Shown in pieces: positions 13,795-27,341 of a DNA stretch of 39,152 nt. The notes beneath the pieces are model-generated. The model ran no database searches and had not been told where the DNA came from. It saw nothing but the letters and a program-made list of their open reading frames with translations. Made by a program: the position numbers and the translations under genes. Within the stretch, counting starts at the first letter, position 1. Each line of letters starts with the position of its first letter. Source of the stretch: Candidatus Sulfopaludibacter sp. SbA3 (lineage in GTDB: Bacteria > Acidobacteriota > Terriglobia > 20CM-2-55-15); the NCBI GenBank assembly GCA_945865815.1, contig CAMBFR010000025.1, forward strand, positions 1-39,152. Reading direction: 5' to 3'.

Positions 13795-13840
13795 AGGTTT
13801 GCCATCTCCTCTTTGAAAAACTGTAGCAGTACAAAATACT

Positions 13841-14021
13841 CCCCTCCTGGATTAGGAGGGGTGCCGCTCGCGCGTTTGTTAGCGAACGGCGGGGTGGTAT
13901 ACATGACGCAAAGCCACCTTATAGATAGTCGCGAAGCGCACCGATTCAAAGGTCGATTCGCGCCTTCCGTACCACCCCGTCTGCGCCTTCGGCGCAGCCA
14001 CCCCTCCTAAGACAGGAGGGG
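13841..14021. repeat. MITE-like multi-hairpin repeat, copy 1 (181 bp)
   Basis: Both ends are small hairpins built from CCCCTCCT and AGGAGGGG. Inside, GGGGTGGT (left) is complementary to ACCACCCC (right), so the whole unit can fold as nested stems. A stem-loop TGCGCC/GGCGCA lies near the right end. The last 57 bases are identical to those of the copy at 27129-27341; the interior differs. No ORF is carried. It sits between the pruA start and the end of the rhodanese gene. Confidence 0.85.
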
Positions 14022-14034
14022 AATTTGGACTCAC

Positions 14035-14355
14035 CTACAGCTTGTCGACTGTGGGCAGTCCTTCCTTCTTCCAATCACGCAGGCCGCAGTAGTGCACGGC
14101 CTTGTAGCCTGCTTTTAAAAACGCTTCAGCGGCGCGCGACGCGCGCCCGCCCCCGCCTCAGTAAAAGACGATCGCGGCACTTGCGGGAAATTCCTTCATC
14201 CTCTTTTCCAACTTGCCCATCGGAATGTGGATGGCTCCGGGAATCGCGCCACCGTTCCTGATTTCACTGGTTTCGCGAATGTCGACTACAATTGGCCTCG
14301 TCTTCGATTCCAGTTTCTGCTTCAATTCCATGATCGGGATTCGTTCTGCCGGCAT
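14035..14355 (-). CDS. Rhodanese-domain protein with in-frame UGA (probable selenoprotein)
   Basis: Reading the TGA at 14158-14160 as selenocysteine gives one intact 106-residue rhodanese. Residues 1-65 contain VVDIRETSEIRNGGAIPGAIHIP and AIVFY. Position 66 is Sec, followed by GGGGRASRAAEAFLKAGYKAV, HYCGLRDW and KKEGLPTVDKL before TAG. In rhodaneses the active-site loop is C-x-x-G-x-R preceded by a hydrophobic strand; the TGA falls exactly on that cysteine. The loop reads U-G-G-G-G-R. A hairpin with SECIS geometry follows. Cys90 could resolve a selenenyl-sulfide. Cysteine rhodaneses transfer sulfane sulfur; a Sec enzyme would be more redox-active. The alternative is a recent nonsense mutation, but the downstream frame is undamaged. 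No selA/B/C/D is in the window. Confidence 0.82.
14128..14150 (-). promoter_or_regulatory. Candidate bacterial SECIS hairpin
   Basis: On the rhodanese mRNA, GGCGCGC (14147-14141) pairs with GCGCGCC (14137-14131) around the triloop GUC. A few further pairs are possible below one bulged G. The loop starts 17 nt after the UGA and its first base is G. These fit the usual bacterial SECIS limits (loop roughly 16-37 nt from UGA, G among the first loop bases). High local GC makes a chance hairpin possible. Confidence 0.6.
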
Positions 14356-14378
14356 GGCACAATTCTACCGGAGGTTGT
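14356..14378. promoter_or_regulatory. 23-bp divergent start region (rhodanese / DUF1326)
   Basis: Only 23 bp separate the two start codons. On the plus strand GGAGG precedes the DUF1326 ATG. On the minus strand there is no Shine-Dalgarno sequence, but TAGAAT (14367-14362), a good -10 box, lies 6 nt before the rhodanese ATG. This suggests a leaderless rhodanese transcript. Confidence 0.4.
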
Positions 14379-15011
14379 ATGTCTAAAGTACCGTGGAGAT
14401 TGAAAGGACAATACATCAAAAACTGCAACTGCCTGGCGACCTGCCCGTGCGACACGATCGGCGTCCCCGCGCCGGATAAGCACTGCGAGGGGATGGCGGG
14501 CATGCACATCCAGCAGGGAAACTATGGCGGCGTCAAGCTTGACGGCTTGAGCTGGGCCGTGACGTATCACTGGCCCGGCGCGCTGCACGAAGGCAATGGC
14601 ACGGCACAGCCGTTCATCGACAGGAGCGCGACCGAGGAGCAACGAAGCGCTTTGCTGCAGATTATGAGCGGCAAGGCCGGCAATATCTGGTTCGAGATTC
14701 TCGCATCGATCGTCACGACTTTTCACGAGCCGCAGTTCCTTCCCATCACATGGGAATTCGACAAGAAGGGCCGCCGCGCCAAGGTTGTGATTCCAGGTTT
14801 CCTGGAAACCGTGTCGGCGCCGCTCCGGATACCAGCCACAAACGACGAGCAGGAAGTCATCGTCTCCATGCCGAACGGAATGGAGTACAAGCAATTCCAG
14901 GTGGCGCAGGCCGTGGTCTTGAAAGGCACCGGACCCATAAAGTTCGATTGCGTTGGCACGCACAGCAGCCTGGCCGACATCGAGCACACGGAGGCCGGAC
15001 TCCGGGCGTAA
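14379..15011 (+). CDS. DUF1326 domain protein
   Basis: The 210-residue protein matches DUF1326. It begins with WRLKGQYIKNCNCLATCPCD, a cluster of four cysteines (positions about 15-24) typical of the family. Conserved segments such as GVKLDGLSWAVTYHWPGALHEGNGTAQPFID and a C-terminal half with FDCVGTHSSLADIEH follow. No signal peptide or membrane helix is visible. The function is unknown; the cysteine cluster suggests metal or thiol chemistry. DUF1326 genes are commonly next to DUF2182 genes, as here. GGAGG lies 5 nt before the ATG. It is divergent from the Sec-rhodanese. Confidence 0.88.
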   Translation: MSKVPWRLKGQYIKNCNCLATCPCDTIGVPAPDKHCEGMAGMHIQQGNYGGVKLDGLSWAVTYHWPGALHEGNGTAQPFIDRSATEEQRSALLQIMSGKAGNIWFEILASIVTTFHEPQFLPITWEFDKKGRRAKVVIPGFLETVSAPLRIPATNDEQEVIVSMPNGMEYKQFQVAQAVVLKGTGPIKFDCVGTHSSLADIEHTEAGLRA

Positions 15012-15107
15012 CCGTGAAGGCCAAGGCGGGGGAATTTTGAAATTAGACGAATCCTGCATCTCAAATCCGAAATCCCGAAACCTTCAATTGGACCGGCGAT
15101 CCTGCTC

Positions 15108-15908
15108 ATGCCTAAAGAACGAATCGAACCTTCCCAACTATCCCTGCTGGCCACGGTCGCGGTCTTGACGACGATTGCCTGGTATTTCACCTTTGCGCAG
15201 GTGCAAAGCATGGGACTGCTCATGAGCCTTGGCGTCCCCATGTCCCTGGGCATGGAAGGTTGGGCGGGATGGACCAGCTTCGCCGCGTTTACCGGAATGT
15301 GGCTGGTCATGATGGTCGCGATGATGCTGCCGTCCAGCTATCCCACTCTCCTCCTTCATCGCACCGTTTATAGAAAACGAACACCCGATACTCCGGGCGG
15401 CACATTCCTTTTCGGATTAGGTTATTTCCTCACATGGACAGCTTGCGGCAGCTTCTTTTACGCGGCCTACGTCATGATCGGAGGCTTTCGCGAATACGCG
15501 GTCAGCGCGGACACTGTTGTGCTTCGGGCAGCGGGCGTCGCGTTGATGCTCGCGGGACTGTATCAGTGGACCCGCTTGAAGCAGGCATGCCTGAAACACT
15601 GCCAGAACCCGTTACACTTCATCGCGGAACACTGGATCGACGGCCGGGGCGGCGCCTTCCGGATGGGAATCCGGCACGGCATTTACTGCTTTGGCTGCTG
15701 CTGGGGCCTGATGGTGATCCTGTTCGTAATGGGCGTGATGCACCTGGGCTGGATGGCGGCCATCGGCGCGATCATCCTTCTGGAAAAGATCGTTGCCGGC
15801 CGGAACTGGGTTCCCAGAATGATTGGCGGAATCTTCTTTGTGCTGGGGCTCACGGTAACAATATTTCCGGAAGTCCTCACGCGCATTTCCGCGCAGGTGG
15901 TCTTATGA
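15108..15908 (+). CDS. DUF2182 predicted metal-binding integral membrane protein
   Basis: This 266-residue, highly hydrophobic protein has about seven transmembrane helices and matches DUF2182. The diagnostic segment is AFTGMWLVMMVAMMLPSSYPTLLL, rich in methionine. LKQACLKHCQNPLHFI, GIRHGIYCFGCCWGLM and the final GIFFVLGL helix follow. The Met- and Cys-rich helices and the H-x(3)-CFGCCW motif suggest metal binding in the membrane; the substrate is unknown. It probably works with the DUF1326 protein 96 nt upstream. Confidence 0.88.
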   Translation: MPKERIEPSQLSLLATVAVLTTIAWYFTFAQVQSMGLLMSLGVPMSLGMEGWAGWTSFAAFTGMWLVMMVAMMLPSSYPTLLLHRTVYRKRTPDTPGGTFLFGLGYFLTWTACGSFFYAAYVMIGGFREYAVSADTVVLRAAGVALMLAGLYQWTRLKQACLKHCQNPLHFIAEHWIDGRGGAFRMGIRHGIYCFGCCWGLMVILFVMGVMHLGWMAAIGAIILLEKIVAGRNWVPRMIGGIFFVLGLTVTIFPEVLTRISAQVVL

Positions 15909-16333
15909 CAATTGAACTCGGAGAGTGCGTGCTGCATCGGAATCCGCAGGACGGGCCATCGATTGCTGGTATTGAGGGAATGGTTCTGCAGTCTTCCGGC
16001 CCGCATATACATGCCGTAAATGTCGGGTTTCACGACTCGCAGATGCGGGGGCGCGCGGCGCTCATTCAAACCGGCTGGAACGGCGAAAAAGAATCTCCAT
16101 ACCTCTCGGAGGACCTGGTGTTCCGGCTGATACGGTCCGGAGCAAGAGTGGTCGGCGCAGACTTTTATATTGCAGAGCCGGCCCTCTCAACCTTGCTTGG
16201 TGGAAACATTGTCGTCATCGACAGGGTTCGCAATCTTCCGGCACTGCCGCGCGTGGGGTTTCGGCTGAACGCGATTCCGTCATCCGATTCGCGCGGCCGC
16301 GTTTTCGCAGAAACGATGACAAATGACAATTGA
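15905..16333 (+). CDS. Cyclase-family-like protein, short, lacking the HxGTHxD motif
   Basis: From the ATG at 15905, overlapping the DUF2182 stop by 4 nt (ATGA), the protein has 142 residues. Segments AALIQTGWNG, SPYLSEDLVFRLIRSGARVVG, LGGNIVVIDRVRNLPALP and RVGFRLNAIP match the C-terminal half of putative cyclases (PF04199, kynurenine formamidase-like). The N-terminal metal motif HxGTHxDAP is absent, and HIHAVNVGFHDSQ is the nearest His-rich stretch. It could be a natural non-catalytic or divergent short form, or a truncated gene. The last codons (MTNDN, stop) lie inside the inverted repeat that follows. Confidence 0.6.
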   Translation: MTIELGECVLHRNPQDGPSIAGIEGMVLQSSGPHIHAVNVGFHDSQMRGRAALIQTGWNGEKESPYLSEDLVFRLIRSGARVVGADFYIAEPALSTLLGGNIVVIDRVRNLPALPRVGFRLNAIPSSDSRGRVFAETMTNDN

Positions 16334-16399
16334 TCAGTGAACAATGACAAATCCCCTGAAAACTTTGTCATTGTTCACTGGTCAATTGTCATTTGTCAT
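16316..16399. repeat. AT-rich 36-bp inverted repeat between convergent genes
   Basis: Arm 16316-16351 pairs with 16364-16399 with one mismatch across a 12-nt loop. The arms are built from reiterated ATGACAA and look unlike the GC-rich neighbours. The left arm contains the stop codon of the cyclase-like gene, and the right arm ends 3 nt before the stop of the ABC permease. It can therefore act as a bidirectional terminator. Confidence 0.88.
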
Positions 16400-27128: not shown

Positions 27129-27341
27129 CCCCGCCTGGATTAGGAGGGGTGCCGTTCGCGTTTTTCAGCGAACGGCGGGGTGGTGTCCAATCAGTTGATG
27201 CTGCGAAGCCACACTATAGATATTCGCGCAGCGCACCGATTTGAATGAGCGCTACGCGAGCATCCATAACGTGGCTTCGCGCCATTCCGTACCACCCCGT
27301 CTGCGCCTTCGGCGCAGCCACCCCTCCTAAGACAGGAGGGG
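27129..27341. repeat. MITE-like multi-hairpin repeat, copy 2 (213 bp)
   Basis: It shares both ends with the copy at 13841-14021, and the last 57 bases are identical. It carries a perfect 9-bp stem GCCGTTCGC/GCGAACGGC near the left end and an internal perfect 10-bp stem GCGAAGCCAC/GTGGCTTCGC. The first stem is a one-mismatch version in copy 1. A segment of about 25-30 bases is extra relative to copy 1. There is no coding content. Confidence 0.85.

Follow-up and report, generated by a model that had tools for sequence, protein, structure and literature searches.

Gene layout of the locus

The window, i.e. the whole stretch of 39,152 nucleotides of Candidatus Sulfopaludibacter sp. SbA3 that was analysed, carries a gene for a selenocysteine (Sec)-containing rhodanese and, head to head with it, a gene for a DUF1326 protein, which is followed by the genes for a DUF2182 membrane protein and for a short cyclase-like protein (table 1). 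As described in the initial annotation, only 23 bp separate the start codons of the divergent rhodanese (14355) and DUF1326 (14379) genes, and the cyclase-like gene is coupled to DUF2182 by an ATGA that overlaps the DUF2182 stop; this is the only such overlap, the DUF1326 and DUF2182 genes being 96 bp apart. The rhodanese domain is recognized by Pfam as PF00581 (E 3.4e-15), DUF1326 is assigned to its family above the cut-off (E 1e-44, 153.2 bits), and DUF2182 scores 201.7 bits (E 1.4e-59) versus a curated cut-off of 28.7 for PF09948, the current Pfam name of which is PpoB2 / Copper chaperone. The CNCLATCPC cluster noticed earlier is indeed found in DUF1326, along with a further invariant Cys at position 36. 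No signal peptide was seen in the window rhodanese.

Table 1. Genes and sequence features of the locus (window coordinates).
Feature	Position	Strand	Description
Sec-containing rhodanese	14035..14355	-	106 aa, UGA at codon 66, motif YUGGGGR
TGA of the rhodanese, putative Sec codon, at the active-site cysteine position	14158..14160	-	
Putative bacterial SECIS hairpin just 3' of the rhodanese UGA	14128..14151	-	
DUF1326 protein	14379..15011	+	210 aa, PF07040
DUF2182 / PpoB2 membrane protein	15108..15908	+	266 aa, PF09948
Short cyclase-like protein	15905..16333	+	C-terminal third of PF04199

Two repeats flank these genes. Between the rhodanese and an aldehyde dehydrogenase gene lies an element of 183 bp (13840-14022) bounded by inverted repeats of 24 nt that are 92% complementary. 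Its end motif, TTAGGAGGGGTG, is found again, likewise as an inverted pair, at about 27140-27330 (four matches versus 0.06 expected), and the whole resembles a MITE or REP-type element. On the other side, a 36-nt inverted repeat (16316-16399; 97% complementary, 12-nt gap) overlaps the cyclase-like gene at its stop codon, between two convergent genes, and is possibly a two-way terminator.

Selenocysteine in the rhodanese

Comparison among related sequences indicates that the TGA of the rhodanese almost certainly encodes Sec, as had been proposed from the window alone. The genome contains the Sec machinery (selA, selB, selD and a tRNA-Sec with anticodon TCA), and its selD has an in-frame TGA of its own. 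Nine relatives with at least 50% identity were found in 40 other genomes, eight with the TGA and one, in G037, without an in-frame stop. In the alignment the active-site column reads TGA in nine of 10 rows and TGC in the remaining one (L022, the G037 gene), where the residues after the site are nearly unchanged, the codons are different and three of the 10 predicted hairpin stem pairs are broken. Across the phylum, 11 of 396 genomes contain a rhodanese match at E<=1e-20, each with one TGA. Furthermore, when codons for the same residue are compared among 14 TGA genes, 74% of the comparisons (382/515) show identity in the stretch from +5 to +11 behind the TGA, as opposed to 52% upstream (522/1002) and 47% further downstream (595/1260) in the same genes. 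The predicted SECIS hairpin is conserved in the alignment, but without base pairs changed on both sides.

A reading in which the TGA acts as a normal stop codon, and the gene is a pseudogene or two small frames, would be in keeping with the rhodanese remnants found in G001 and G007 (see below) and with the hairpin of the window, which taken alone folds no better than shuffled sequences (z 0.18); however, the TGA of nine of the 10 genes in the alignment, preceded and followed by open reading frame, the Cys found in the tenth, the complete Sec machinery and the constraint on the codons that follow make this reading barely conceivable.

The window rhodanese would thus be a small cytosolic selenoprotein. 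Judging from genome content and comparison, SelB and tRNA-Sec would read UGA66 as Sec, aided by the hairpin directly after the codon, and the selenol would then presumably serve as a carrier of sulfane sulfur or as a reductant of persulfides, as suggested by the rhodanese family. Four Sec-rhodaneses of other acidobacterial families (L063, L064, L068 and L084) have, by eye, signal-peptide-like or lipoprotein-like N-termini; since none is seen in the window protein, exported and cytosolic forms may exist. Sec-rhodaneses are, as a class, already catalogued: the table entries of PMC13188914 give selenoprotein rhodaneses in five forms, two of them (forms 2 and 4, 'rhodanese-like domain-containing protein') with a UxxG motif, and an extract of PMC9312934 lists fewer forms, while Acidobacteria with selenoproteins are reported in an extract of PMC1794560. 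The window protein resembles forms 2 and 4, as far as their table entries go, in having Sec at the active site and the UxxG motif (here UGGG); the present set was recovered in Acidobacteriota with a profile.

DUF1326 and DUF2182 as a conserved pair

DUF1326 and DUF2182 had been called habitual neighbours, and the collected loci confirm it. Ninety loci with DUF2182 and/or DUF1326 were examined, namely: (i) 38 loci of Acidobacteriota (L132-L169) out of 49 DUF2182 matches, nine weaker or partial ones being left out and those of the window and of G301 being treated separately; (ii) 40 loci of Pseudomonadota (L202-L241) out of 47 matches, with seven left out; (iii) four other named records; and (iv) eight loci of closer relatives. 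The distance between DUF1326 and DUF2182 does not exceed 500 bp in 39 of the 40 pseudomonadotal and in 27 of the 38 acidobacterial loci; of the resulting 66 pairs, 60 have both genes on one strand, and both gene orders occur. No third conserved partner stood out among 86 loci and the window, the larger gene clusters that follow the pair looking, by eye, like antisense frames of the pair itself or like common genes. At the level of gene order, the DUF1326-DUF2182 pair is the true conserved unit of the locus. One pair (L099) comes from a contig assigned by binning to an archaeon of the Aenigmatarchaeota, with a DUF1326 64% identical to that of the window, which reflects either mis-binning or transfer.

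Potential soft-metal ligands are strictly maintained in both proteins. In DUF1326, C16, C18, C22 and C36 are invariant in all 67 members, and C24 is present in 58 of them; in DUF2182, for which an all-helical model with no significant PDB match was obtained, M73, C161, C165, C194, C197, C198 and M211 are invariant in 30 out of 30 proteins. A precedent for function is offered by PpoB2 of Marinomonas mediterranea (COG5486 / PF09948), to which the window DUF2182 is related through its Pfam match and which, according to the available portion of PMC2855505, transfers copper to the tyrosinase PpoB1. In Marinomonas the gene forms an operon with that of the tyrosinase, whereas here DUF1326 is the partner. 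PpoB2 is the only DUF2182 member for which a role was found in the literature searched, and neither DUF1326 nor DUF2182 was found there by name.

Because of the pairing, the invariant Cys and Met residues and the copper transfer by PpoB2, handling of Cu(I) appears to be the best reading, and the two are probably copper-handling genes by sequence and by analogy. DUF1326 would use the cluster formed by Cys16, Cys18, Cys22 and Cys36 to hold a soft metal, Cu(I) being the most likely one, and would pass it to DUF2182 in the membrane, with its lining of Met and Cys; DUF2182 may in turn deliver it to a cuproenzyme, much as PpoB2 of Marinomonas supplies tyrosinase. The earlier suggestion of soft-metal handling at the membrane therefore fits DUF2182, on account of its Pfam name, the work on PpoB2 and its invariant Cys and Met residues; the part of that suggestion that drew in the rhodanese finds no support.

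Predicted fold of DUF1326

The model of DUF1326 is a confident one (mean pLDDT 95.7, pTM 0.92). In VIA-align, the nine top-ranking rows are without exception acetoacetate-decarboxylase-like proteins, with Z of 8.9-10.3 as compared with 6.9 for the next group, rmsd of 3.6-4.0 over 151-156 residues and sequence identities of 5-11%. With Foldseek no match was found at E<=0.001, two acetoacetate decarboxylases being at the top of the list. Solved relatives were not detected by sequence at E<=1, nor did any of the 67 DUF1326 members show a Pfam link to a decarboxylase family at E<=1. The acetoacetate decarboxylase superfamily employs a Schiff-base lysine; none of the lysines in the DUF1326 of the window reaches 60% conservation across the 67 members, as determined in the sequence alignment irrespective of structural position. 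DUF1326 is thus alike in predicted fold to the acetoacetate-decarboxylase-like proteins (MppR, Swit_4259, ADC), with Z up to 10.3, but differs from them in that four invariant cysteines are found and a conserved lysine is not. The structural model makes an acetoacetate-decarboxylase-like fold with a changed function likely.

The run of nine such proteins ahead of any other group could also be taken to mean that DUF1326 is itself an enzyme of the acetoacetate decarboxylase type, with structural or catalytic cysteines and with DUF2182 as its transporter or partner, and no metallochaperone at all. The absence of a lysine reaching 60% conservation next to four invariant cysteines, together with the lack of a Pfam link and of a Foldseek match at the thresholds given above, makes this unlikely. 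A more specific version of the copper reading is that DUF1326 is an ADC-like beta-barrel that lost the lysine and gained Cys16/18/22/36 to become a cytosolic Cu(I) metallochaperone loading DUF2182, the two forming a copper-insertion module found in at least two phyla; in this full form the proposal is a tentative one, with the odds somewhat against it.

Rhodanese remnants in related genomes

The DUF1326 of G001, which belongs to the same genus, is 96% identical to that of the window and has a divergent rhodanese that starts alike; the rhodanese frame, however, ends in TAA after about codon 33, and from there the sequence leads straight into an aldehyde dehydrogenase gene, the counterpart of the one situated past the rhodanese in the window. 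Thus, G001 keeps the first 33 codons of the rhodanese and the 5' region that it shares with DUF1326. No intact rhodanese was found in G001; one may exist elsewhere in it, as the genome is 81% complete. A Sec-rhodanese remnant without the active-site part is also found in G007 (L252, G007:C385, 5227-5371), beside a convergent cyclase-like gene, and is a second loss in the family, with selB kept. Loss of Sec decoding was considered as a cause of rhodanese loss and ruled out, selB being present in G001 and G007. Overall, selB was found in 26 of 28 genomes, G037 included; those in which it was not found are G023 (88% complete) and G301 (72% complete).

The cyclase-like gene matches the Pfam Cyclase family PF04199 below the cut-off and over its C-terminal third only (E 0.036, 14.7 bits versus 23.1), so that the label is apt for what is a short and divergent protein; the homologue in G009 passes the cut-off, with 30.8 bits. 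Homologues are present in six of the 10 other family genomes (G003, G004, G006, G007, G008 and G009), and in the stretches read around these six the DUF1326 and DUF2182 of the window are unmatched. On this basis the gene was rejected as a member of a common system and is probably outside the copper pair; in the window it may simply ride on the DUF1326-DUF2182 transcript, as its ATGA overlap suggests. Since it is convergent to the rhodanese in G009 and to the rhodanese remnant in G007, these two genes may share an older neighbourhood.

Neighbourhoods of the rhodanese and of the pair

The initial annotation had joined the rhodanese with DUF1326 and DUF2182, an association that was examined from both sides. 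Twenty-two loci of the Sec-rhodanese family besides the window were compared, 20 with the TGA and two (L061 and L067) without it; DUF1326 is nearby in none of the 22, several of which are cut by contig ends on one side. DUF2182 occurs on one, G301, at a distance of 2.0 kb and on the opposite strand of a 4.1-kb contig. Conversely, a rhodanese of any sort lies within 2 kb in two of the 90 DUF2182/DUF1326 loci, as scanned with a profile built from 25 acidobacterial loci, the sensitivity of which in Pseudomonadota may differ. Both are of other kinds: in L162 a convergent rhodanese follows a ribose-5-phosphate-isomerase-like gene (labelled by eye), and in L093 (G004) a rhodanese-CBS protein of the Cys type is divergent from DUF1326 at 371 bp, next to a pair 70/65% identical to that of the window. 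With 67 rhodaneses in about 43 Mb of 11 genomes, approximately 0.5 would be expected by chance in the 332 kb that flank the 90 loci (Poisson P about 0.09); the two observed are a slight excess, with no pattern.

The presence patterns differ too: out of 11 family genomes, three have both an intact rhodanese and DUF1326, three have an intact rhodanese only and five have DUF1326 only. G009 and G010 have both genes on different contigs, and their rhodaneses share as neighbours a gene of the OmpA family and a further cluster, neither of which is seen at the window. Adjacency of rhodanese and DUF1326 was found only in the genus of the window, which is close to the single-genome adjacency that the initial annotation had itself named as speaking against an association.

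Could the Sec-rhodanese nevertheless work with the copper pair here, under divergent control, with its selenol either maintaining the cysteines of DUF1326 in reduced form or providing sulfide that sequesters Cu(I)? The closely spaced head-to-head starts, the shared 5' region and 33 codons retained by G001, the joint occurrence with DUF2182 in G301 and the other rhodanese that adjoins the G004 pair would all agree with it. However, G001 truncated the rhodanese and kept DUF1326, DUF1326 is not seen near any of the 22 other Sec-rhodanese-family loci, rhodanese and DUF1326 are distributed differently across the 11 family genomes, and the G301 contig, from a genome of limited completeness, has transposase-like and kinase-like frames (labelled by eye) between the two genes. 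A joint Sec-rhodanese/DUF1326/DUF2182 system was rejected on the neighbourhood counts, the G001 remnant and the presence patterns, and is considered quite improbable.

The preferred reading, to which we assign a probability of roughly 75%, is that the locus comprises two independent neighbours and a bystander, the rhodanese standing by chance beside a copper pair that acts as a Cu(I) module. A rearrangement in this genus would have brought the rhodanese next to DUF1326-DUF2182, and no joint function would be needed to account for the arrangement.

Concluding remarks

A tempting selenium-copper system has been struck off by a single sister genome, in which the gene is truncated, and by a neighbourhood count taken in both directions. 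Two usable results remain. One is a group of acidobacterial Sec-rhodaneses that includes a Cys homologue with a broken hairpin stem. The other is the strict DUF1326-DUF2182 pairing, with its invariant soft-metal ligands and a confident structural model, which makes the role of the as yet unstudied DUF1326 family directly testable.
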